A stretch of 64,000 nt of DNA from Moorella sp. E308F (GCF_006538365.1 NZ_BJKN01000001.1:915424-979423); one strand, 5' to 3'. Counted from the first letter of the stretch, positions 31,798 to 44,447 are shown. Numbers and translations: made by a program. Notes: generated by a model from the sequence alone, not told the origin.

Positions 31798-33462
31798 ATG
31801 GGCATAACCGTCAGAGAGGCTTTAAAGTTGGGGGGCCTGCAGAGGGCCACCCTGCTGGCTGGCGAAGCAGGACTAGATAATGTTATAAAATTTGTAGATA
31901 TCCTGGAGATACCTGATCCCCGCGGGTGGCTCAGGCCCAATGAATTTATTATTACAACAGGATATGCGGTAAAGAACGACCTGGAAGCGCAGTTGAATCT
32001 TTTACGGGAGCTGGCAGGGGCGGGCGGAGCCGGCCTGGCCATAAAGTTCGGGCGGTTTATCGGCGCTGTTCCGGAGGAAATGTGCCGCCTGGCCGGCGAG
32101 TTAAAGCTGCCCCTCTTGAGTGTGCCTGATGACGTCCCGTATGTGGAGATCACCAATCCACTGATGGCGGCCATTGTCAATGAACAGGCAAGGCAGCTTG
32201 AGTATTCGGAGAAAGTCCACCGTAAGCTTACCCAGGTGGCCCTGGAGGCCAGCAATCTCCAGGCCGTTGCCACAGCTCTGGCCGCCCTGGTGGAGCGGGA
32301 AGTAGTTATTTGCAATGAGGAATTCAAGCCCCTGGCAGAGGCGGGTAAGGGCCCATCTTCGGAAACCTTTCAGCTGCCGCCTGAAGAAGCCAAAAGGCTC
32401 AATTTGACGCAGAAAGCGGTAGAAGTAGCCCTCTGGTACAAAGGGACACGGCGGCGGTATTTTGCCTCTCCTGTTGACGTCAGGGGCCGGCGCTATGGCT
32501 ACGTAATGGTAGAAGGGCAAACGCCCTTGAGCGAATTAAACCATATCGCCCTGGAGCATGCCGTGACGGTAACTGCCCTGCAAATGGTCAAGGAAGAAGC
32601 TGTGGCCGAAGTCCAGCGGAGCCTGCAGCGGGATCTGCTGGAGGACCTGATAGCCGGGGCCTTTCGCCATCGCGAACTGGCCGTCAGCCGGGCTGAAGCC
32701 CTGGGTATTTTTCTAGAGGAACCCAAGGTGATCATGGCCATCGACATAGATGATTTTAGCGGTTATCTCTTGCACCGGCCCGAAGTCTATGAAACAAACA
32801 CTGAAAAGCTAAAACGCAATTTTCACCGGTCAGTAAATTCCTGCCTTGCAGCCTTAGAACGGCGGGTTTTAACGGTCCAGCGCAGCGACAGCGTTGTAGC
32901 CATCTTACCGGCGTCAGCGGAGGAAGGGCAAGCCAGAGTGGGCTGGAGCAACTTAAGAATTAAGCTCCAGGAACTCGCTGTGGAAATTCAACAGCAAATT
33001 GCCAGGGAGTTGAACGGCGTAACTGTATCCGTGGGTATAAGCTCTGTAGCCCAGGACCCTATGGATATCAGCAAGCGCTACCAGGAGGCTAGAAACGCCA
33101 TAAGGACGGCCAGGCTTATCAAAGGAAGAGGCGCCGTAGCGTTCTGGGAGGATGTAGAATTATACCATGTTTTGGGGCAATCGGGCCGGGCCCTGGCCAG
33201 GTTTTACCACTCGATTCTGGGATCGCTGGATCGTCCGGAAGTCAAAAACCGTGAGGTCCTGCTGGAAACTTTACGCGTTTATCTCGAGTCTGAGGGAAAC
33301 GTAATGGCTGCAGCCGAAAAGCTGTACGTGCACCGTAATACCCTGCGTTACCGGCTGCAGCGAATTGAAGAACTTCTCGGGCGCGATCTGGATTCGCCTG
33401 ACGAAAGACTAGCCATCTGGCTGGCCCTGAAGGCCCGGGCACTCCTCAAATCTGATAAATAA
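31798..33462 (+). CDS. PucR-family transcriptional regulator
   Basis: PucR regulators control purine, amino-acid and related catabolic operons. The 554-residue protein has a PucR N-terminal ligand domain (~1-130), a GGDEF-like middle region (~280-430, V-S-V-G-I-S-S) and a C-terminal PucR helix-turn-helix (A-A-E-K-L-Y-V-H-R-N-T-L-R-Y-R-L). A GGAGTGAAGC precedes ATG 31798. A terminator follows, but the genes from 33587 run in the same direction, so it probably regulates that operon in response to its substrate. Confidence 0.9.
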   Translation: MGITVREALKLGGLQRATLLAGEAGLDNVIKFVDILEIPDPRGWLRPNEFIITTGYAVKNDLEAQLNLLRELAGAGGAGLAIKFGRFIGAVPEEMCRLAGELKLPLLSVPDDVPYVEITNPLMAAIVNEQARQLEYSEKVHRKLTQVALEASNLQAVATALAALVEREVVICNEEFKPLAEAGKGPSSETFQLPPEEAKRLNLTQKAVEVALWYKGTRRRYFASPVDVRGRRYGYVMVEGQTPLSELNHIALEHAVTVTALQMVKEEAVAEVQRSLQRDLLEDLIAGAFRHRELAVSRAEALGIFLEEPKVIMAIDIDDFSGYLLHRPEVYETNTEKLKRNFHRSVNSCLAALERRVLTVQRSDSVVAILPASAEEGQARVGWSNLRIKLQELAVEIQQQIARELNGVTVSVGISSVAQDPMDISKRYQEARNAIRTARLIKGRGAVAFWEDVELYHVLGQSGRALARFYHSILGSLDRPEVKNREVLLETLRVYLESEGNVMAAAEKLYVHRNTLRYRLQRIEELLGRDLDSPDERLAIWLALKARALLKSDK

Positions 33463-33501
33463 ATTGTGCTGGTTGCATAAAAATGAACCCGATATATTCA
33501 T

Positions 33502-33535
33502 ACCGCTTGGCCATAGATACCAGGCGGTTATTTTT
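33502..33535 (+). terminator. Rho-independent terminator after the PucR gene
   Basis: ACCGCTTGG (33502-33510) pairs with CCAGGCGGT (33520-33528) with one G-T pair, followed by a T-rich tail. A TATAAT at 33537-33542, directly after it and without a clear -35, may be the activator-dependent promoter of the operon that follows. Confidence 0.75.
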
Positions 33536-33586
33536 ATATAATCTCATCTCAGGTATTATGTTGAGCATTATCAAGGAGGCTTTAAC

Positions 33587-34222
33587 GTGCTGGCAGTTAT
33601 TCGTGTCCTCACTACCCAGGACGAAAATTTACTTAATGCCCATGGGCGCATAATCACTGCAAAATATGGGCTGCCGACCCGGAGCTACTGTATACCTGAC
33701 CAGCCGGAGGGCATATATAATGAAGAAACTGAAAGAATTGCCGTTCCCAAAATAGTGCGCCTGGCTCGCCAGGCGGAGGAAGAAGGGGCTAAGGCGATTT
33801 TTATTAGCTGTGCGGCCGACCCGGCCCTGCAAGAGGTGCGGGCGGAATGCAAAGTACCTGTCATTGGTGCCGGTTCAGCGGCCGCCGCCGTAGCACTGGC
33901 CCTTGGCAGGAGGATTGGCGTCTTAAACCTGACTGAGGCTACTCCGGCGGCGGTAGCTACCGTCCTCGGCTCCCACATGGTTGCCGAAACCAGGCCGGAG
34001 GGGGTGAAAAATACCAGGGATCTGCTGACCCCGGCGGGTAAAGAAAAAGCCGTTAAGGCTGCCGGCGAACTGGTTAGTAAAGGGGCCGACGTCATTGTTT
34101 TCGCCTGCACGGGTTACTCTACCATCGGCCTGGCCGGAGAAATCAGAGAACGCCTGAGGGTAAGGATTGTGGATGCAGTAGAAGCCGGCGGAGTGGTTGC
34201 CAGGTATACTTTACAAAATTAG
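33587..34222 (+). CDS. Asp/Glu/hydantoin racemase family protein
   Basis: The 211-residue protein has the two-Cys layout of the racemase superfamily: an I-S-C-A-A-D motif near residue 76 and F-A-C-T-G-Y near residue 170, where cofactor-free racemases place their two catalytic cysteines. Family members racemise Asp, Glu, hydantoins or allantoin. GTG 33587 follows GGAGG by 8 nt. As the first enzyme gene of the operon it may invert a D- or L-amino-acid derivative, which is an inference. Confidence 0.82.
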   Translation: MLAVIRVLTTQDENLLNAHGRIITAKYGLPTRSYCIPDQPEGIYNEETERIAVPKIVRLARQAEEEGAKAIFISCAADPALQEVRAECKVPVIGAGSAAAAVALALGRRIGVLNLTEATPAAVATVLGSHMVAETRPEGVKNTRDLLTPAGKEKAVKAAGELVSKGADVIVFACTGYSTIGLAGEIRERLRVRIVDAVEAGGVVARYTLQN

Positions 34223-34240
34223 CAAGGGAGAAGGGAAATT

Positions 34241-35842
34241 ATGGAAGAAAAATTGTTAACAGAAAAACATCCCCGAGCTTTTGAACCCGTCGTTCTTATT
34301 TTAAATATTATTCTTTCGGTTCTCGGGGCAATTATCGGCCTGCAAATATTAACAACCCTTGGGGTGACCCCGAATACTTCCATTATCGGTGTGCTGGTGG
34401 CTATTGCCCTGTCCCGGATTCCGGCAGGGTGGCTGGCCAGATACCGATCCATTCACCGCCAGAATCTGGTCCAGTCGAATATCTCCAGCGCTACCTTTGG
34501 GGCGGCCAATTCTTTACTGCTTCCGATAGGTATTCCTTACCTGTTTGGCCGGCCCGACCTGGTTGTCCCGATGCTGATTGGTGCGACCATGGGTATGCTT
34601 ATTGACCTGGCTATGTTGTACTGGTTCTTCGATTCCCGTGTTTTCCCCGGCAAAGCGGCCTGGCCGCCCGGCGTGGCTGCAGCCGAAGCCATCTACGCCG
34701 GCGACGAAGGCGGCAGGAGGGCCTGGCTTCTGGTCTGGGGGACTATTATCGGTATTATTGGCTCCTACTTTAAGGTTTCCATGTCTGCTTTTGGCGTAGC
34801 CTTCATCGGCAATGTCTGGGCCCTGGCCATGTTTGGTGTTGGCCTGCTGCTCAGGGGTTATTCTACTACCCTTTTTGGCGTGGATATCAACAAGCTCTAT
34901 ATTCCCCACGGGATGATGATCGGTGCTGGCCTGGTGGCAGGCATCCAGATCCTCTTCATTCTTCTTAGGGGAAGAAAAGAAGGAAGGATTCATGCAAGCG
35001 CTGATGCACCCGGCGATTACACCCGGAGCGAAGAACATGTCAGCAAAGGTTTAGTCCGCGGTTTTGGCCTTTATGTAGCTGCCGCCCTTATTTTGGCCTT
35101 CCTGGGCGGCCTCTATACGGAAATGCCGGCCTGGCAGCTTGTTTTCTGGGCCATCTTTGCTGCCGTTTCCTGTATCCTGGCAGAATTCATCGTTGGCCTT
35201 TCCGCCATGCACGCCGGCTGGTTCCCGGCTTTTGCTACGGCACTGATTTTTCTCGTTCTAGGTATGGCCCTGGGGTTCCCGGCCCCGGCCCTGGCCCTGC
35301 TGGTGGGATTTGTCGCCTCGGGAGGACCGGCCTTTGCCGACGCCGGCTATGACTTGAAGGCCGGCTGGATTTTAAGGGGTGAAGGACGTAACCGCGACTT
35401 TGAGCTGGAAGGGCGCTGGCAGCAGTTCCTGGCCGGCCTGGTAGGGCTGGCGGTGGCCTGGGTAATGGTCACCTTGTTCCATGATGTATATTTTCGCCAG
35501 GATTTGTTCCCTCCCGTCGACCGGGTGTATGCGGCCACCATTAAGGCGGGCGTAGACGCTGCTATTATCAAAAACCTGGTGCTGTGGGCCATTCCCGGAG
35601 CCCTGATCCAGGCCCTGGGCGGCTCCGACAGACAGATAGGGATAATGTTAGCTACCGGTCTCTTAATCCTCAATCCCATGGCGGGTTATGCCGTACTGGC
35701 CGGCATTATTATCCGCGTCCTGGTTCTCAAGTTTATGGGCAAGGAAGCCGAAACGCCCATGACCATCCTGGCCGCCGGTTTTATCGCCGGCGATGCCCTC
35801 TATGGCTTCTTCAACTCGGTATTCAAGGCTAAATGGAAGTAA
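34241..35842 (+). CDS. OPT/YSL-family oligopeptide-type transporter
   Basis: The 533-residue membrane protein has about 12-15 membrane segments and OPT-family motifs, including K-A-A-W-P-P-G and G-V-D-I-N-K-L-Y-I-P-H-G. OPT transporters import small peptides or amino-acid-derived chelates with protons. It lies 19 nt after the racemase gene and its end overlaps the region of the next ribosome site. The substrate is presumably what the following enzymes process. Confidence 0.9.
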   Translation: MEEKLLTEKHPRAFEPVVLILNIILSVLGAIIGLQILTTLGVTPNTSIIGVLVAIALSRIPAGWLARYRSIHRQNLVQSNISSATFGAANSLLLPIGIPYLFGRPDLVVPMLIGATMGMLIDLAMLYWFFDSRVFPGKAAWPPGVAAAEAIYAGDEGGRRAWLLVWGTIIGIIGSYFKVSMSAFGVAFIGNVWALAMFGVGLLLRGYSTTLFGVDINKLYIPHGMMIGAGLVAGIQILFILLRGRKEGRIHASADAPGDYTRSEEHVSKGLVRGFGLYVAAALILAFLGGLYTEMPAWQLVFWAIFAAVSCILAEFIVGLSAMHAGWFPAFATALIFLVLGMALGFPAPALALLVGFVASGGPAFADAGYDLKAGWILRGEGRNRDFELEGRWQQFLAGLVGLAVAWVMVTLFHDVYFRQDLFPPVDRVYAATIKAGVDAAIIKNLVLWAIPGALIQALGGSDRQIGIMLATGLLILNPMAGYAVLAGIIIRVLVLKFMGKEAETPMTILAAGFIAGDALYGFFNSVFKAKWK

Positions 35843-35859
35843 TGAGGAGAGACCCGGCA

Positions 35860-36963
35860 ATGAGCTTGAAGATGACGCTTGATTACGAAGTTATGGAAGC
35901 GGCCGTACTGGGCGGGGCTGTTCTGGGGGGCGGCGGTGGTGGTTCCATGGAGCTGGGACGCCAGGCCGCCCGCCTGGCTCTAGAGCTGGGCACCCCTGTA
36001 TTAATACCAATTGATGCCCTTGCTGACGATGCCATGCTGCTTACCGTTTCGGCCGTTGGAGCGCCGGCGGCCAGGACGGCCTTTGTCAAGCCGGTGCATT
36101 ATATACGTACCGTGGAGTTGTTCAGCAAAAATACAGGCGAAAAGATTCACGGTTTAATTACCAATGAATGTGGCGGCCTGGCCAGCGTTAACGGGTGGCT
36201 GCAGGCCGCGGCCCTGGGCATACCCGTGATCGATGCCCCCTGTAACGGCAGGGCCCATCCCACCGGGGTCATGGGCTCCATGGGGCTGCATAGAGTTGCC
36301 GGGTATATCTCCCGGCAGGTGGCAGTCGGCGGCAATCCCCAAACGAATAGCTATATTGAGGTTTTTGCCAGCGGTTCCCTGGAGGCAACCGCCAGTATGG
36401 TAAGGCAGGCTTCAATACAAGCCGGCGGGCTGGTGGCCGTAGCCAGGAATCCGGTTACGGCAGGGTATGCGAAGGAAAATGCTGCCCCCGGCGCCATAGG
36501 CAAGTGTATCGCTGTGGGCAGAGCCATCCTGGCCAATCGCGCTAAAGGCCCCCTGCCGGCAATCGAAGCGGCAGCGGAAGTTTTAGGCGGTGCCATAATT
36601 TTTACCGGGAAAGTGGCTGCCGTTAGCCTGCAGACCACCGGCGGCTTTGATGTTGGTAAAGTAGTAGTCCAGGGCGAACGGCAGATGGCGGAACTTACCT
36701 TCTGGAACGAATATATTACTCTAGAAATTGAAGGTGAAAGGAAAGGCACTTTTCCAGACCTGCTGGCAACTATGGACCTCAGTAGCGGTTTGCCCCTGTC
36801 TTCGGCAGAAATCCAGGAAGGGCAGGAGATAGCCATTTTGCACGTTCATCGTGACAGGTTAATTCTGGGAAGCGGCATGAAGGATCCTGACCTTTTTCAT
36901 GTGGTAGAAAAGGCTACCGGAAAAGAAGTAATCAAATACGTATTCGCTGGAAGAGGGGTGTAA
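35860..36963 (+). CDS. DUF917 family protein
   Basis: This 367-residue protein belongs to DUF917, annotated for S-methylthiohydantoin desulfurase-like proteins and often found near hydantoinases. It shows the Gly-rich N-terminal motif A-V-L-G-G-G-G-G-G-S (~residues 20-30), T-N-E-C-G-G and C-N-G-R-A-H-P. ATG 35860 lies behind GAGGAG; an ATG at 35833 overlaps the transporter end. The reaction is unknown for most members. Confidence 0.85.
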   Translation: MSLKMTLDYEVMEAAVLGGAVLGGGGGGSMELGRQAARLALELGTPVLIPIDALADDAMLLTVSAVGAPAARTAFVKPVHYIRTVELFSKNTGEKIHGLITNECGGLASVNGWLQAAALGIPVIDAPCNGRAHPTGVMGSMGLHRVAGYISRQVAVGGNPQTNSYIEVFASGSLEATASMVRQASIQAGGLVAVARNPVTAGYAKENAAPGAIGKCIAVGRAILANRAKGPLPAIEAAAEVLGGAIIFTGKVAAVSLQTTGGFDVGKVVVQGERQMAELTFWNEYITLEIEGERKGTFPDLLATMDLSSGLPLSSAEIQEGQEIAILHVHRDRLILGSGMKDPDLFHVVEKATGKEVIKYVFAGRGV

Positions 36964-36967
36964 CAGG

Positions 36968-37903
36968 ATGGCTCTTAAACAGGTAATAGAAGCTTATGAA
37001 CTTCTTGACAGCGCTTATGTTGATGGCTATGAGGTGGCAGGCTTACTTAAAAAGGCCGGCCTGGAAGACGTAGAGGTAAAGCGGATTGCCGGCGCCAAGG
37101 GTTTTACGGACTTTATCAAAGTCAGGGTACCGGGAAGCAATGGTAAGGTTAAAGGCGGCAGCGCGCCGACCCTGGGGATAATCGGCCGGCTGGGTGGCCT
37201 GGGCGCCCGGCCGGAAAGGATAGGTTTTGTGTCCGACGGCGACGGCGCCCTGGCTGCGGTGGCTGCCGCCTTGAAACTGGGGACCATGCAGAAGAAGGGG
37301 GATATACTGGCCGGGGATGTGATTATTGCTACCCATATCTGTCCCAATGCGCCGACCAGGCCTCATGATCCCGTGCCCTTCATGGATTCGCCGGTGGATA
37401 TTGCTGCAATGAACCGCCATGAAGTCGACCCGGCCATGGACGCCATTCTTTCCATTGATACAACCAAAGGCAACCGGGTTATCAATCACCGCGGTTTTGC
37501 TATCTCGCCGACGGTTAAAGAGGGGTATATCCTGCGGGTTAGTGAAGACCTGCTCGACCTGATGCAGATTGCAACCGGCAGGTTACCGGTAGTCTTCCCG
37601 GTTACTACCCAGGACATTACGCCCTACGGCAACGGCCTTTATCACCTGAACAGCATTTTGCAACCTTGCGTAGCCACGGCGGCGCCGGTAGTGGGGGTGG
37701 CCATTACAGCCGAAGTGCCGGTCCCGGGCTGCGCCACCGGCGCCAGTCACCTGGTAGATATTGAAGCTGCCGTTCGCTTCTGTATCGAAGTGGCCAAGGC
37801 CTTTGGCCAGGGTAAGTGCCGCATTTACGATGAGGAAGAATTTGAACGGTTGAAGGCCCTTTACGGCCCCATGGACCACCTGCAGACTTTGGGTAAAAGC
37901 TAA
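36968..37903 (+). CDS. DUF1177 family protein
   Basis: The 311-residue protein is of the DUF1177 family. It has H-I-C-P-N-A-P-T near residue 122, H-D-P-V-P-F-M, and C-A-T-G-A-S-H-L-V-D, a set of His, Asp and Cys residues that could bind a metal. It starts 4 nt after the DUF917 stop, so translation is coupled. The family has no assigned reaction; co-occurrence with OPT transporters, AroM and aminopeptidase-like genes points to peptide or amino-acid catabolism. Confidence 0.85.
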   Translation: MALKQVIEAYELLDSAYVDGYEVAGLLKKAGLEDVEVKRIAGAKGFTDFIKVRVPGSNGKVKGGSAPTLGIIGRLGGLGARPERIGFVSDGDGALAAVAAALKLGTMQKKGDILAGDVIIATHICPNAPTRPHDPVPFMDSPVDIAAMNRHEVDPAMDAILSIDTTKGNRVINHRGFAISPTVKEGYILRVSEDLLDLMQIATGRLPVVFPVTTQDITPYGNGLYHLNSILQPCVATAAPVVGVAITAEVPVPGCATGASHLVDIEAAVRFCIEVAKAFGQGKCRIYDEEEFERLKALYGPMDHLQTLGKS

Positions 37904-38057
37904 AGTATGCCCGCGTAAATAACGGGTTACCGTATCGGAGGGTAGTTGAAAAGACCTGTGGTAGTACAGCAAGCCTGGTAGAGTATGCGCCCGGAGCCGC
38001 AGGGTGTCACCGGCACCGGGCCTGTGCCTGGAAAAAGGGCAAGGGAGGGGTCCTGGA

Positions 38058-38729
38058 ATGGTACGTAAAGTAGGCGCTATTACCATCGGGCAGTCGCCCC
38101 GCGTTGATGTCGTGCCGGAAATAGAGGCAATTCTTGGGGACAGAATAGAAATAATCGAAGCGGGAGCCCTTGACGGTTTAAGCCATGAAGAAATAGCGGC
38201 CCTGGCGCCGGGACCGGGGGATTACGTCCTGGTGACCAGGTTGCGGGACGGCAGTTCGGTAAAGCTTGCCGAGCAGCGTATTTTATCGTTAATGCAGGCC
38301 CGGATTGACGAGGTGGTTGCTGCGGGCGCCGAGGCTGTTTTATTGCTGTGTACAGGGGAATTTCCTCCTTTTTCCTGCCCACGGTTAATTTTGCAGCCCC
38401 AGCTAATCCTGCATCATTTCACCGCTGCCGTCGCGGCCGGGCGACGGCTGGGGATAATAGTTCCTGATCCGGGCCAGGTAGAGCAGGCCGGGGTGCGCTG
38501 GGCCGGAATGGGTAGCGCCCTGGCAGTAGAAGCCGCTTCGCCCTATGGACCTGTAGAGGCCATATGGCAGGCAGCCGCCAGGCTACAGGAGTGGCAGGCG
38601 GAATTGATTGTCCTAGATTGCATGGGCTTCAATATGGACATGAAAAAAGAAATCATGAAGCGTACCGGCATTCCAACCATACTGCCGCGCACGGTTGCCG
38701 CGCGTGTCATTCTGGAATTATTATCCTGA
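38058..38729 (+). CDS. AroM family protein
   Basis: The 223-residue protein matches AroM: it starts K-V-G-A-I-T-I-G-Q-S-P-R-V-D and has L-L-L-C-T-G-E-F-P near residue 95. AroM in E. coli lies next to aroL but its function is unknown; the fold is related to the Asp/Glu racemase group. ATG 38058 follows GGGAGGGG. A 154-nt gap without a gene precedes it, then it leads directly to the M29-like gene 13 nt on. Confidence 0.85.
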   Translation: MVRKVGAITIGQSPRVDVVPEIEAILGDRIEIIEAGALDGLSHEEIAALAPGPGDYVLVTRLRDGSSVKLAEQRILSLMQARIDEVVAAGAEAVLLLCTGEFPPFSCPRLILQPQLILHHFTAAVAAGRRLGIIVPDPGQVEQAGVRWAGMGSALAVEAASPYGPVEAIWQAAARLQEWQAELIVLDCMGFNMDMKKEIMKRTGIPTILPRTVAARVILELLS

Positions 38730-38742
38730 GGAGGCGGCCGGC

Positions 38743-39690
38743 TTGCAAGACCTGAAAACAGTAGCCAGGGAGCTTTTGCGTACCAATATGGCTTTAAAGC
38801 CCGGTGAAACTTTGCTGGTGGTGACCGATACGGCAACAAGCACTATTGGCGAAGTGATTTTCCAGGCCGGTGAAGAAAGCGGCGCCCTCGCGACACTTAT
38901 CAAGATGCCTCCCACGGACAGGCCCGGGGCCGAGCCGCCCCCGCCCGTGGCGGCGGCTATGGCCAGGGCCCAGGTGGTTATTTGTCCTACCAGGAATTCC
39001 TTAACCCATACCCAGGCCCGGATCAAGGCCTGCCAGGCCGGGGCGCGGGTGGCCACCATGCCCGGTATTACCGAGGATATGTTTTTTACCGGGGCGGTGG
39101 CGGCCGACTATGATCAGGTGGCCCGGCTGGCTACAGAACTTGCCCGGCTGCTTACAGAAGCCAGGACTGCCGTTTTGGTCAAAGAAGGCCTGGAATTGCA
39201 GCTTTCCCTGGCCGGGCGCCGGGGTATAGCCAGTACCGGCTTGTACCGCCGGCCGGGTGAAGCAGGAAATTTGCCTTCGGGGGAGGCATACATCGCCCCC
39301 CTGGAGGGAAGCGCGGAAGGTGAAACGATTATTGACGGCTCCGTGGCGGGTATTGGCCGGCTGAGGAGCCCTGTCAGAGTAACTATTCGCCAGGGAATTT
39401 TAACGGCTGCTCAGGGCCCGGAAGGGCAGCGGCTGCTGGAGCTATTGGGGAGTGCTCCTGAAGCCAGAAACGTGGCCGAACTGGGCCTAGGCACCAATGA
39501 CCGCGCCAGGGTCTCAGGCAACATTTTAGAAGACGAGAAGGTATACGGGACCGTTCATCTTGCCTTTGGTAATAATACAACCTTTGGCGGCACGGTCAGG
39601 GCGGGAGTGCATATTGACGGTGTTATTATGGCCCCCGACCTGTACCTGGACGGGAAACTGGTCGTTTCTCAAGGAAAAATCATAGTTTAA
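38743..39690 (+). CDS. M29-like aminopeptidase-family protein
   Basis: The 315-residue protein resembles the M29 aminopeptidase (AMPS/PepS) superfamily, which also contains dihydroxypyridine dioxygenase-like enzymes. It shows E-L-G-L-G-T-N, V-H-L-A-F-G-N-N and H-I-D-G-V-I near its end, the places of metal ligands in that family. TTG 38743 follows GAGGAGG by 8 nt. It may cleave or open the imported peptide-like compound. No other peptidase is in the operon. Confidence 0.75.
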   Translation: MQDLKTVARELLRTNMALKPGETLLVVTDTATSTIGEVIFQAGEESGALATLIKMPPTDRPGAEPPPPVAAAMARAQVVICPTRNSLTHTQARIKACQAGARVATMPGITEDMFFTGAVAADYDQVARLATELARLLTEARTAVLVKEGLELQLSLAGRRGIASTGLYRRPGEAGNLPSGEAYIAPLEGSAEGETIIDGSVAGIGRLRSPVRVTIRQGILTAAQGPEGQRLLELLGSAPEARNVAELGLGTNDRARVSGNILEDEKVYGTVHLAFGNNTTFGGTVRAGVHIDGVIMAPDLYLDGKLVVSQGKIIV

Positions 39691-39703: not shown

Positions 39704-39733
39704 CTGCAACCCGCCTTGACAGGCGGGTTGCAG
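39704..39733 (+). other. Perfect 12-bp hairpin after the operon
   Basis: CTGCAACCCGCC (39704-39715) and GGCGGGTTGCAG (39722-39733) pair perfectly around TTGACA. There is no T tract after it, but a stronger terminator-like structure lies 60 nt on. It may end or stabilise the upstream transcript. Confidence 0.6.
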
Positions 39734-39795
39734 TATCTCGTAACCACAAGTTGCCGGCCTTCTCCAGGAGGATTCGGTCACCGGGTGGCGAATAT

Positions 39796-39833
39796 ATCCC
39801 TTCTGTAACCTCAAGGGAAGAAGGGATTTTTTT
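39796..39833 (+). promoter_or_regulatory. Terminator-like hairpin covering a ribosome site
   Basis: ATCCCTTCT (39796-39804) pairs perfectly with AGAAGGGAT (39819-39827), followed by seven T. The 3' arm contains the only Shine-Dalgarno-like sequence (AAGAAGGGA) of the DUF5693 gene, whose TTG starts follow at once. The structure can end read-through transcripts and would also hide the ribosome site. Confidence 0.6.
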
Positions 39834-41742
39834 GTTGCGCCGGCGTTACCAGCCAGTCCTCTGGGCAATGCTGATTATCGCCACCCTGGCCGCCGGGGTG
39901 GTAATTACGAACCGGGTACGCCTGGAAGAAGCCAACCGGACGGTTACCCTGGCGGTTGACTTCCAGCAGGTGCAGAAATTAGCCCAGTGGAGTGGCTTGA
40001 CTACCAGGGAAACTCTCAGCCGTTTGCAACAGCAGGGAGCCAATGCCGTCCTTTTTAAGGAGCAGACTATAGAGGATCTCCAGCAGCAGGTCTGGGTCCG
40101 GCCGGGAACTGAGGCTGTCCTATACTTCCCGGCTGCAGTACAGAAAGAAGTACGCCCCGAGTATACCTACCTTTTTACCAGCGACAGGAAACTGGCGCAG
40201 CGCCTGGAACTGCAGCTGGAAAATAAAATCCCCGGCGAGGTGCAGGTGCTGGCCGGCAGCGACTTCGTAGCTCTGGGTATACCCCTCTCCACAGCAGAGC
40301 TAAAGGAAGTGGGCCTGGGCTTCCCGGAACGGGAGATGGCCATGGCGCGGGAACTGGGCCTGTTCCTCATTCCCCAGGTGCGGTGGTGGTATGGCGCCAA
40401 CGCCGCTTCCCTGGCCGCCACTTTAAGGCCCCTTTTTGCCTACCAGGACAGCATCGTTGCTTTGCTTTTCAATGATAAGAACCTTCCCGGTTACCCCCAT
40501 TACCTGTTTAACCTGGCGGCCCAGGTGGAGCAGATCAAAGTCCCGGTGGGCCTGATTGAATTTTTCCCGCAACAGGGCCTCAGTCAGCTGGTCGTGCTTC
40601 TGGATAAAAGGGCTCTGCGGGTACACAGCATCAGTGGTGATGAAATGGCCGGTCTAACCCCGGCGGCGGCCCTGGAACGCCTGGAGCTGGCAGCCAGGGA
40701 AAGGAATAATCGCATTCTCATCGCCCGTTTTAAGTTTACCCCGGGATCGACAAACTGGCTGGAGGATAACCTCCATTTCGTTGGGGAATTAAGAAGAGTA
40801 ATCCTCGCCGGCGGCCTGACCATAGGCCGGGCGGAGCCCTTCTCATCATTTCCTTTCTCACGCCTGTGGCTGTATTTAACCGGCCTGGGTGTCCTGGCTG
40901 CCGGGGTTCTTTTAATGATGCAGTTTGGTTTACTTCGCCTGGGTTTAGCTTTAGGTTTCCTGGGCCTTGTGATCTGGACGGGGGCCCTGGGGCTGAATCA
41001 CCAGGTGCTTTTAGCCCGCAAGGTAATGGCCCTGGGGGCGGCCATTATTTTTCCCACCCTGGCCGTGCTCATGGCCTGGTCGCCGGTACCGCGCAGTTTA
41101 AAGGCCGGGATAGCCGTCACCCTGCGCACGGCCCTGCTCTCCTTCCTGGGGGCGTTGTATATTGCTGCCATTCTGGCCGATAATACCTTTATCTTAAAGA
41201 TTAATGAATTCAGCGGTGTTAAAATTGCCTTTGTCGCTCCCTTGTTTTTATTTACGGCGGCCGTGATTATCCGGCAGGAGGGGCGGGGGGCCGGCGCTGC
41301 CCTGCAGGGCTGGCTTGATGCCGGCCTCACCGTAAAGCTGGTACTCCTGGCCGTGGTGGTGGCTGCTGCCGGTGTCCTTTACCTCAGCCGCAGCGGTAAT
41401 GAAGGGGTGGGGCTGTTACCTTTTGAAGGGCAGATGCGCTCTTTCCTGGGGAACGTTTTACTTGCCCGGCCGCGGACCAAAGAGTTCCTCCTCGGCTATC
41501 CCTTTTTGCTTTTAAGCCTGAGCCTGGGTTACCAGCACCGTTATCTTCTCTTCTGGCTCCTGGGCCTGGTGGGCCAGATCTCCCTGGTTAATACTTTCTC
41601 GCACATTCATATTCCTTTCCTCATTTCGTTATTACGGACCTTTAACGGCCTGTGGCTGGGGCTTCTGATTGGTTCGCTGCTGGTTACAGCCGTAAAGCTG
41701 GGGGCGGGAAGTTTAAGGAGGAACAGGGCATGGCCAGGGTAG
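39832..41742 (+). CDS. DUF5693 family membrane protein
   Basis: The ~636-residue protein has one N-terminal membrane segment, a soluble domain to about residue 340 facing outside, and about eight membrane segments after it. The DUF5693 family commonly precedes csaB in Firmicutes, so a role in wall-polymer modification is likely but not shown. Two in-frame TTG codons (39832, 39835) are the likely starts; the longer frame from 39751 lacks a ribosome site. It overlaps csaB by 13 nt. Confidence 0.75.
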   Translation: MLRRRYQPVLWAMLIIATLAAGVVITNRVRLEEANRTVTLAVDFQQVQKLAQWSGLTTRETLSRLQQQGANAVLFKEQTIEDLQQQVWVRPGTEAVLYFPAAVQKEVRPEYTYLFTSDRKLAQRLELQLENKIPGEVQVLAGSDFVALGIPLSTAELKEVGLGFPEREMAMARELGLFLIPQVRWWYGANAASLAATLRPLFAYQDSIVALLFNDKNLPGYPHYLFNLAAQVEQIKVPVGLIEFFPQQGLSQLVVLLDKRALRVHSISGDEMAGLTPAAALERLELAARERNNRILIARFKFTPGSTNWLEDNLHFVGELRRVILAGGLTIGRAEPFSSFPFSRLWLYLTGLGVLAAGVLLMMQFGLLRLGLALGFLGLVIWTGALGLNHQVLLARKVMALGAAIIFPTLAVLMAWSPVPRSLKAGIAVTLRTALLSFLGALYIAAILADNTFILKINEFSGVKIAFVAPLFLFTAAVIIRQEGRGAGAALQGWLDAGLTVKLVLLAVVVAAAGVLYLSRSGNEGVGLLPFEGQMRSFLGNVLLARPRTKEFLLGYPFLLLSLSLGYQHRYLLFWLLGLVGQISLVNTFSHIHIPFLISLLRTFNGLWLGLLIGSLLVTAVKLGAGSLRRNRAWPG

Positions 41743-42833
41743 TTATCTCCGGCTATTACGGCTTCCAGAACGCCGGTGATGAGGCCGTCCTTTACAGCAT
41801 GGTTCAGGCCTTGCGTTCCTTTGTGCCCGGCCTGGAAATTACTGTCCTATCTCACTGCCCGGAGCAAACAGCAGCGAGCCTGAACGTTGATGCGGTAAAC
41901 CGCTGGCAGCTGGCGGCGGTAGCCGGGGCCATGCGCCGGGCCGACCTGGTTATCAGCGGTGGTGGCAGCCTTTTCCAGGATGTTACCGGATGGAAGAGCC
42001 TTCTCTACTACCTGGGCGTGGTGGTCCTGGCCCGGCTGCTGCGCAAGCCGGTAGTGGTCTATGCCCAGGGCCTGGGACCGTTAAAGCGCACTTTTAGCCG
42101 CCGGCTGGCCGGCAGAGTCTTAAATAGCGTCCAGCTTATAACCCTGCGGGACAGTGAGTCGCGGCAGCTCCTGGAGGAGCTCGGGGTGAGACGGCCGCCG
42201 GTCTACGTTACGGCCGACCCGGTTCTGGGCCTGGAACCGGAGAACCTGGATTTGCGAAACGGGCAGAAAAAATGGCAGGAGCTGGGATTGGCCGGACCGG
42301 TAATTGGTATTTCTGTCCGCTCCTGGCCAGGGGCCGGGAACTGCTGGCCGGCGCTGGCCAAGGTGGCTGATGACCTGGTGGCCGGCGGGTGGCAGGTTTT
42401 ATTTTTACCTTTCCACTTTCCCGCCGACGTCGATGCCTGCCGCCAGGTGGCCCGCTTGATGCATCAGCCGGCAGCCATTTTAAGGGAAAATTTGGACCTG
42501 GCGACTATTATGGGCCTTATGGGCCGGCTGCAATTTTTAATTGCCATGCGCCTGCACGCCCTGGTCCTGGCAACAGTTATGGGAGTGCCCTTTTTGGCCC
42601 TGCCCTACGATCCCAAAGTGGCTGCCTTTGCCCGGCTGGTGGAACAGCCGGCCGTGGGTTCCCTGGCAGGGGTAACCTGCCAGGGCCTCACGGCGGCAGT
42701 CCAGGAGGCTCTGGCTCGCCGGGAAGAGCACGGCCAGAGGGTCAGGGCGGCAGCGGCCGAACTGCGGCCCCGGGCCCTGGATACCGCCCGCCTGGTTGCA
42801 GAGTACCTGAAGAAAGGAGCCATAGGCGGCTGA
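41730..42833 (+). CDS. csaB: Polysaccharide pyruvyl transferase CsaB
   Basis: CsaB adds a pyruvate ketal to the secondary wall polysaccharide, creating the site bound by SLH domains. The 367-residue protein has the family's G-D-E-A near residue 17, G-G-G-S-L-F-Q-D and a late A-M-R-L-H-A motif. ATG 41730 follows AAGGAGG. It would serve the two SLH proteins at 16-21 kb. Its sequence differs from the pyruvyl transferase half of the fusion at 1.7-4.2 kb, so two such enzymes exist here. Confidence 0.93.
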   Translation: MARVVISGYYGFQNAGDEAVLYSMVQALRSFVPGLEITVLSHCPEQTAASLNVDAVNRWQLAAVAGAMRRADLVISGGGSLFQDVTGWKSLLYYLGVVVLARLLRKPVVVYAQGLGPLKRTFSRRLAGRVLNSVQLITLRDSESRQLLEELGVRRPPVYVTADPVLGLEPENLDLRNGQKKWQELGLAGPVIGISVRSWPGAGNCWPALAKVADDLVAGGWQVLFLPFHFPADVDACRQVARLMHQPAAILRENLDLATIMGLMGRLQFLIAMRLHALVLATVMGVPFLALPYDPKVAAFARLVEQPAVGSLAGVTCQGLTAAVQEALARREEHGQRVRAAAAELRPRALDTARLVAEYLKKGAIGG

Positions 42834-42845
42834 CAGCTAGAGAAA

Positions 42846-44447
42846 ATGGCAGCAAAAAGTAACGGCAAGTATGCCCGGGTACCGGCAGGGACACCGGTGG
42901 CCCGCATGGCCAAGGCGGCGAGTATCGTCCTGCTCTTGAACCTGTTGAGCCGGGTGCTGGGTTTTGTCCGGGATGCCAGCATTGCCGCCCGTTTTGGCGC
43001 CGGCCCGGCTACCGACGCCTATCTGGTAGCCTATACTATTCCTTTTTTCCTCCAGACCATCCTGGGGATGGCCTTTGTCACGGTGATGGTGCCGGTTGTG
43101 ACTGCTTACCTGGTCCGGGATGACCGCGACCAGGCCTGGGCAATAGCCAGCGCTGTCGGCAACTGGACGTTTTTAATCATGACCCTGCTGGCGGCGGCAG
43201 GTGCCGGCCTGGCTCCCTGGCTCGTCCAGGTCCTGGCCCCCGGATTTGCGGGGCCTGTTTATGACCTGACGGTGAAACTTACACGCATCATGTTCCTCTC
43301 CTTACCCTTTATGGGTACAGGGATGCTCATCAGCGGCATTTTAAACGCCGGCTATATCTTTACCTCCCCGGCCCTGGCACCGGCGGTCAGCAACCTGGTC
43401 ATCATTGCTACCGTAGTCCTGGCCGGGCAAGCCTTTGGCATTACCGGGCTGGCCGTAGGGACAGTCTTAAGCTTTGCCGCTTACCTGGCTATACAGTTAC
43501 CCGATTTACCGCGTTTGCAGTTCCGTTACTCGTGGCGCTTGCTCTCCCATCATCCGGCAGTTAAGAGAATAGGCCGCAACTTGTTACCGGTATCTTTGAG
43601 CCTGGCAGTGGTCCAGCTGTACCTGGCCACAAACCGCTTTTTTGCCTCCCGGCTGGCAGCGGGGAGTATTACGGCTCTGGACTTTGGTAATCGTCTGGTA
43701 ACTTTACCCCTGGGCATCTTTGTGGCCAGCGTTACTACGGCTGTTTTTCCTTCTCTGGCCGAGCAGGCGGCCCGGCAGGATCGCCGGGAAATGGCCCACC
43801 TGGTTGATCGGGGCCTGGGGCTGGTGGCCCTGACTATCATGCCGGCGGCTGCCGGGCTCATTGTCCTCCGGGAACCCCTGGTGCGGCTGGTTTTTGAGCG
43901 GGGGGCCTTTGATCCCCGGGCGACGACCATGACGGCTGTTGCAGTTTTATTTTATTCCCTGGGCCTCCTGGCCCAGGCCATGCACCCCATCCTGACCCGG
44001 GCCTTTTATGCCCTCCAGGAGGTAGTCGTTCCGGTAACGACTGGCCTTTTCTCCGTGACGTTAAATATCATTTTCAGCTACCTGCTGGTACCGTACCTGG
44101 GACATGGCGGCCTGGCCCTGGCCAATTCCCTGGCTGCCAGCCTCTATTCTCTATTGCTTTACCTGGCCCTGTACCGCCGCCTGCCGGAGCTAAAGGCGGC
44201 TGCCCTGCTGGGCTCTACGCTGCGCACCGGCATGGCAGCCGTAGGAATGGGCCTGCTGGTTTGGCTGGCCGGGAGGGGCCTGGGTGTATTTGCCTGGTCA
44301 CAATCCCTGCTGGGATTATTTATCCGGTTAACCGGATTAATAGCCGCCGGAGTTTTCCTCTTTTGGGGATTAGCCCTGTTATTACGGATTGAAGAGGTCA
44401 ATCTCATCAGCTTTATGCTCCGCCGCCGGCTGCACAGGTTTTTTTAG
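42846..44447 (+). CDS. murJ: Lipid II flippase MurJ (MviN)
   Basis: MurJ moves lipid II to the outer face of the membrane for peptidoglycan synthesis. The 533-residue protein has about 14 membrane segments and the family motifs R-V-L-G-F-V-R-D and F-G-A-G-P-A-T-D-A-Y near its start, and F-E-R-G-A-F-D in the middle. It begins 12 nt after csaB and is probably co-transcribed with it. Confidence 0.92.
   Translation: MAAKSNGKYARVPAGTPVARMAKAASIVLLLNLLSRVLGFVRDASIAARFGAGPATDAYLVAYTIPFFLQTILGMAFVTVMVPVVTAYLVRDDRDQAWAIASAVGNWTFLIMTLLAAAGAGLAPWLVQVLAPGFAGPVYDLTVKLTRIMFLSLPFMGTGMLISGILNAGYIFTSPALAPAVSNLVIIATVVLAGQAFGITGLAVGTVLSFAAYLAIQLPDLPRLQFRYSWRLLSHHPAVKRIGRNLLPVSLSLAVVQLYLATNRFFASRLAAGSITALDFGNRLVTLPLGIFVASVTTAVFPSLAEQAARQDRREMAHLVDRGLGLVALTIMPAAAGLIVLREPLVRLVFERGAFDPRATTMTAVAVLFYSLGLLAQAMHPILTRAFYALQEVVVPVTTGLFSVTLNIIFSYLLVPYLGHGGLALANSLAASLYSLLLYLALYRRLPELKAAALLGSTLRTGMAAVGMGLLVWLAGRGLGVFAWSQSLLGLFIRLTGLIAAGVFLFWGLALLLRIEEVNLISFMLRRRLHRFF

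Follow-up and report, generated by a model that had tools for sequence, protein, structure and literature searches.

A pucR-headed operon of Moorella sp. E308F with a widespread DUF1177-AroM pair predicted to serve the catabolism of peptide-like amides

The 64,000-nucleotide stretch of Moorella sp. E308F analysed here (GCF_006538365.1 NZ_BJKN01000001.1:915424-979423; hereafter the window, whose numbering is used for all coordinates) contains an operon of a pucR regulator gene and six structural genes, which encode a racemase-family protein (Race), an OPT transporter, DUF917, DUF1177, AroM, and an M29-like protein. The system is real, widely distributed, and partly mobile; it is catabolic and very probably serves to take up and degrade small, unusual peptide-like molecules (cyclic, D- or iso-configured). 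Its constant part is the DUF1177-AroM pair, often accompanied by a second racemase. The two genes travel together through at least 12 phyla, with gut Blautia and a conjugative plasmid of enterobacteria among the carriers, and they probably mark a single, as yet undescribed step in the metabolism of peptides or amides. An initial annotation had proposed a pathway for the import and breakdown of a cyclic or modified dipeptide or hydantoin. It was right in direction: the peptide- or hydantoin-type catabolic theme is borne out by swappable OPT, peptide ABC, and NCS1 transporters and by peptidases, but a specific cyclic dipeptide or hydantoin substrate is not, given a DUF917 that scores below family cut-offs and is often missing. 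It also passed over the remnant of an eighth gene, the decay of the operon in congeners, and its spread on plasmids.

The reading that we favour, at about even confidence, is that of a substrate-inducible catabolic operon whose products import unusual dipeptide-like amides, invert their stereocentres, and hydrolyse them. PucR would sense a small nitrogenous molecule and turn on transcription at ~33550; the OPT protein would import a short unusual peptide or peptide-derived amide, whether cyclic, D-configured, or iso-linked; DUF917 may open a cyclic amide where the substrate contains one; Race and AroM would invert stereocentres; and DUF1177 and the M29-like protein, both predicted metal-dependent amide or peptide hydrolases, would free ordinary amino acids as sources of carbon and nitrogen. 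More tentatively, DUF1177 and AroM may constitute a new two-enzyme catabolic module, in which a metallohydrolase and an epimerase would work directly on a dipeptide or on the cyclic form of one. Such a module would detoxify or use stereo-inverted peptides across Bacteria and Archaea and would have escaped notice for want of an assigned reaction in either family.

The conserved core and its exchangeable partners

DUF1177 homologues with identities of 62-87% occur in at least 12 phyla, archaea included, among 80 genome loci that are the best 80 of 533, a sample that leans towards the close relatives of the query. The bacterial hosts belong to Bacillota, Synergistota, Spirochaetota, Actinomycetota, Chloroflexota, Bipolaricaulota, Aminicenantes, Bacteroidota, Pseudomonadota, Thermodesulfobacteriota, and KSB1, and several archaeal lineages are represented in the same set. 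AroM lies in the same gene run as DUF1177 at 57 loci, DUF917 at 39, the M29-like protein at 37, OPT at 36, and Race at 36; in 43 of the 57, the AroM start falls between -20 and +160 bp from the DUF1177 stop. DUF917 is missing from about half of the 80 loci, many of which retain peptide transporters and the DUF1177-AroM pair, and the core is therefore DUF1177-AroM rather than DUF917. Among 61 relatives, 8 genomes have both AroM and DUF1177, 2 have only DUF1177 (one of them with a deleted operon), and 1 has only AroM; the genomes are related, so this co-occurrence is given no formal probability.

The genes around the core vary by replacement. The transporter beside DUF1177 is OPT at 41 loci, a Dpp-type peptide ABC transporter at 14, and an NCS1 permease at 3. 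The peptidase position is filled by the M29-like protein, PepE, a PepD-like M20 protein, or an ArgE/DapE or aminoacylase-like M20 protein, and single clusters add an amidase or amidohydrolase. Regulators are likewise exchangeable, with PucR or IclR at different loci and an Lrp-type protein in Salinigranum. Swappable peptide transporters and peptidases are the pattern of a catabolic module for small peptide-like amides, in which the DUF1177-AroM core would handle the unusual feature of the substrate and leave the ordinary bond to the local peptidase.

Both phylogeny and gene context point to horizontal spread. In the DUF1177 tree, the three enterobacterial copies lie inside a supported clade whose other members are Bacillota, and the compact version of the cluster is found on plasmids, flanked by transposases in Klebsiella. 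A conjugative plasmid of Klebsiella pneumoniae from cattle faeces (L148:6559-11966) carries the set IclR-OPT-DUF1177-AroM-PepE-racemase among transposase genes, and a Sodalis plasmid carries the same set. On a Salinigranum plasmid, an ABC transporter accompanies DUF917-DUF1177-AroM-aminopeptidase-racemase-aspartoacylase, together with the Lrp-type regulator gene. A search of E. coli genomes at megablast sensitivity returned no match to the compact cassette. This compact plasmid version (OPT, DUF1177, AroM, PepE, and racemase) makes the question of function testable in ordinary laboratory hosts. A further plasmid, from Planococcus (L150:3706-16414), holds DUF917, HyuA, a cytosine-type permease, DUF1177, a class V aminotransferase, and HyuA/HyuB, possibly a hydantoin-type variant of the system.

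Predicted activities of the enzymes

DUF1177 (36968-37903, + strand; PF06675, 5.5e-142) matches its family profile at full length, with 471.9 bits against a cut-off of 25 bits and coverage of positions 2-271 of 272. Its AlphaFold2 (AF2) model has a predicted local distance difference test (pLDDT) score of 89.2 and a predicted template modelling (pTM) score of 0.92. Foldseek places the model with M28, M17, and M20 metallopeptidases (E-values down to 1.7e-8, probability 1.00), in a loose match with template modelling scores of ~0.5 and root-mean-square deviations of 6-7. The comparison suggests a fold of the MH metallopeptidase clan, and we describe the protein as a predicted metallohydrolase of that fold. 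Residues D90, D92, H123, D164, and H226 are invariant or nearly so. Judged from topology, the usual first histidine ligand of the MH clan appears to be replaced in DUF1177.

The M29-like protein (38743-39690, +) matches part of the PF02073 profile (43.1 bits, 3.3e-11) and carries the five metal-ligand positions of aminopeptidases in the order E, E, H, H, D. These residues (E181, E246, H272, H290, and D292) are kept in 30 of 33 alignment rows, and the deviation is limited to three long paralogues (in L015, L024, and L027). The AF2 model (pLDDT 96.7) is matched by Foldseek to the dioxygenase NicX and to the aminopeptidases AmpT, PepS, and AmpS. With the M29 aminopeptidases it shares the five ligand positions and the fold of the catalytic part, whereas it is shorter (~315 versus ~410 residues) and nearer to NicX in sequence. 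Taken together, model and ligand positions suggest an aminopeptidase-type metalloenzyme.

Race (33587-34222, +; PF01177, 8.8e-26, 91.4 bits) is a member of the Asp/Glu/hydantoin-racemase family in which the catalytic-type cysteines C75 and C174 are invariant across 36 alignment rows. It matches the solved structure 2eq5, a 'hypothetical hydantoin racemase' (4e-66). AroM (38058-38729, +) is Asp/Glu-racemase-like, with a full-length match to PF07302 (257.9 bits, 9e-77) and cysteines C98 and C188 invariant in 64 rows. A two-cysteine arrangement is that of cofactor-independent racemases; it is common to Race, AroM, 2eq5, and the hydantoin and allantoin racemases, and it suggests that Race and AroM are two Cys/Cys racemases of one superfamily. 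We know of no activity for 2eq5 or for AroM.

DUF917 (35833-36963, +; PF20906, 1.3e-29; PF06032, 5.4e-22) is a DUF917/S-Me-THD-like protein and a predicted cyclic-amide hydrolase. It belongs, over nearly its full length, to the family that includes the thiohydantoin and S-methyl-thiohydantoin desulfurases. On the corresponding NCBIfam models, however, it scores 309 bits against a cut-off of 440 (NF058529) and 298 bits against 450 (NF058532), and the genes that accompany it encode peptide transporters and peptidases. These are good scores that nevertheless fall short of both cut-offs, so that ring opening is a plausible role while the desulfurase label is not justified.

Operon structure and boundaries

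All seven genes are intact, open, and on the + strand, and Pfam confirms each family that had been named. The regulator gene (31798-33462) encodes a PucR-type protein with a PucR N-domain (PF07905, 5.5e-33), a GGDEF-like domain (PF17853, 5e-19), and a C-terminal helix-turn-helix domain (PF13556, 2.6e-28). An intrinsic terminator follows it (33502-33540, +), formed by a 9-bp stem, a 9-nt loop, and a T-rich tail; its loop of 9 nt let it escape a simple hairpin scan. The region 33495-33545 folds at -14.1 kcal/mol (z -3.4), and the stem is followed by TTATTTTTAT. A consensus scan finds a promoter-like site for the structural genes, TAGATA-17-TATAAT (33514-33542, +; 10/12), with a sequence that is unchanged in a congener (G051). 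The OPT transporter gene (34241-35842, +; PF03169, 1.5e-30) comes after Race; no solved relative of the OPT protein was found, and its assignment is a family match from which peptide transport is predicted.

The genes are separated by 18 bp (Race-OPT), a 10-bp overlap (OPT/DUF917), 4 bp (DUF917-DUF1177), 154 bp (DUF1177-AroM), and 13 bp (AroM-M29-like). Corrected starts, each preceded by a Shine-Dalgarno-like sequence, are most likely ATG 38058 for AroM and TTG 38743 for the M29-like gene. The operon is closed by a strong 13-bp hairpin (39704-39733, +) of -26.1 kcal/mol (z -6.0) that lacks a T-run. The layout thus agrees with the initial description of six codirectional genes behind a regulator and terminator, tightly spaced as far as DUF1177. 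The initial reading of a single regulated unit is supported. The gene order is found again in the sister genus and in phyla only remotely related, far beyond chance. All seven genes are under purifying selection relative to G051 (dN/dS 0.12-0.21).

Loss of an eighth gene and decay in congeners

The loose spacing between DUF1177 and AroM is explained by an eighth gene, which we call c15 and of which a truncated 3' end is left. The 154-bp gap, together with a few codons of the AroM start, holds the final 39 codons of a gene whose intact product has ~280 residues (37954-38070, +; 64% identity to a Thermanaeromonas protein, 6e-11). In the sister genus (G125 and G128), in G085, and at other loci, Synergistota among them, c15 is intact and separates DUF1177 from AroM; G051 retains the same remnant. 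No second or intact copy was found elsewhere in the window genome. The C-terminus of the protein contains Cys and His residues; it has no Pfam family and no solved relative above chance, with weak hints only of a DeoR-C or citrate-lyase-alpha-like fold.

Other congeners carry a decaying operon. In G053, a frame change divides DUF1177 and the OPT reading frame is interrupted by a stop codon close to its end (L138); the operon of G050 has two large deletions (L139); and DUF1177 was not found in 7 of the 10 congeners searched. These losses, set against the intact and constrained genes described above, mark the operon as an optional trait of the genus, at differing stages of loss and still maintained in the window genome.

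Weighing the proposed function

Several observations weigh against the favoured reading. DUF1177 has no sequence similarity to the M28, M42, or M20 profiles by hhalign, although its predicted fold is like that of the MH-clan enzymes, and its candidate metal ligands are the five conserved residues listed above, guessed from conservation. Among solved structures, the M29-like protein is nearest, in sequence and fold, not to a peptidase but to the ring-cleaving dioxygenase NicX. The literature searched assigns no reaction to any member of the DUF1177 or AroM families, and on AroM it yielded nothing beyond one paper. Transporters of the OPT, Dpp-ABC, or NCS1 types are lacking at 23 of the 80 loci, some of which are cut by contig ends, and these loci, as the nearest relatives of the query, bias the counts towards similar clusters. 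No matching solved pathway was found in the papers searched. The initial view that DUF1177, AroM, and the M29-like protein are enzymes yet to be characterised is supported.

The main alternatives to the import and breakdown of an unusual dipeptide-like amide concern the substrate. A hydantoin, a thiohydantoin, or another N-carbamoyl-forming ring, as in ergothioneine breakdown, is an unlikely candidate: DUF917 would open or desulfurate the ring, the racemases would invert the hydantoin carbon, and the hydrolases would remove the carbamoyl group. The thiohydantoin desulfurases within the DUF917 family, on whose models the window protein does reach 309 and 298 bits, are consistent with this, as are the NCS1 permeases and nitrilases of some clusters and the HyuA/HyuB hydantoinase genes that flank DUF1177 in Planococcus. 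Yet those scores stay under the 440- and 450-bit cut-offs, DUF917 is absent from about half of the loci while peptide transporters and DUF1177-AroM persist at many of them, and hydantoin import is not expected of OPT or Dpp-type transporters. Ranking next, and also unlikely, are acidic peptides of D- or iso-configuration (D-Asp, beta-aspartyl, or gamma-glutamyl), to be scavenged from such sources as cell walls, proteins that have suffered damage, or polymers of the cyanophycin type. Race and AroM fall within the Asp/Glu racemase superfamily or are similar to it, but that superfamily also holds hydantoin racemases and decarboxylases; and where some clusters have an aspartoacylase-family enzyme and the dipeptidase PepE, an aspartyl dipeptidase, others have PepD-like, proline-iminopeptidase-like, or deacylase enzymes of other preferences. 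DUF917 would have no obvious role with such a substrate.

Two further readings depart from amide hydrolysis. A 2024 study reports, in its section on cyclodipeptide oxidase clusters, that hydantoin racemases, DUF917, and AroM are enriched beside these oxidases and that the transport genes enriched there include OPT and peptide ABC transporters, and it suggests isomerase and hydantoinase roles for such neighbours; the section does not mention DUF1177 (PMC11055893). The neighbourhoods it describes combine these genes and peptidases much as the operon does, and the operon might accordingly make or tailor a cyclic-dipeptide-type molecule instead of degrading one. We regard this as improbable: no synthetase was noticed, and importers and peptidases point to catabolism. 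A cyclodipeptide oxidase was considered as a hidden partner and rejected, as its B subunit (PF19585) was not found in 47 of the 50 DUF1177 genomes searched, namely the window genome (G000) and 46 others. In the three genomes that have it, its surroundings contain no homologue of DUF917, DUF1177, or AroM detectable with the window proteins. The least probable reading is that an N-heterocycle is broken down and that the M29-like protein serves as a 2,5-dihydroxypyridine dioxygenase. NicX (7cn3) ranks first both among the sequence matches of the M29 alignment (2.3e-22) and among the fold matches (1.1e-25), but the residues do not fit: E181 and E246 are aminopeptidase-like where NicX, as aligned, has F and H, so that the ligand positions follow the aminopeptidase pattern E, E, H, H, D, and the alignment sets PSGF/SHIGWG of NicX against PSGE/AELG of the window protein. 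Several of the hosts, moreover, come from anaerobic groups (Thermococcus, Blautia, and Synergistaceae), in which a dioxygenase is unlikely.

Downstream genes

Beyond the closing hairpin, positions 39751-44447 hold a gene for a DUF5693 membrane protein, identified by Pfam, and then genes that by appearance encode a polysaccharide pyruvyl transferase and a MurJ-like flippase; together they are probably an unrelated cell-wall unit.

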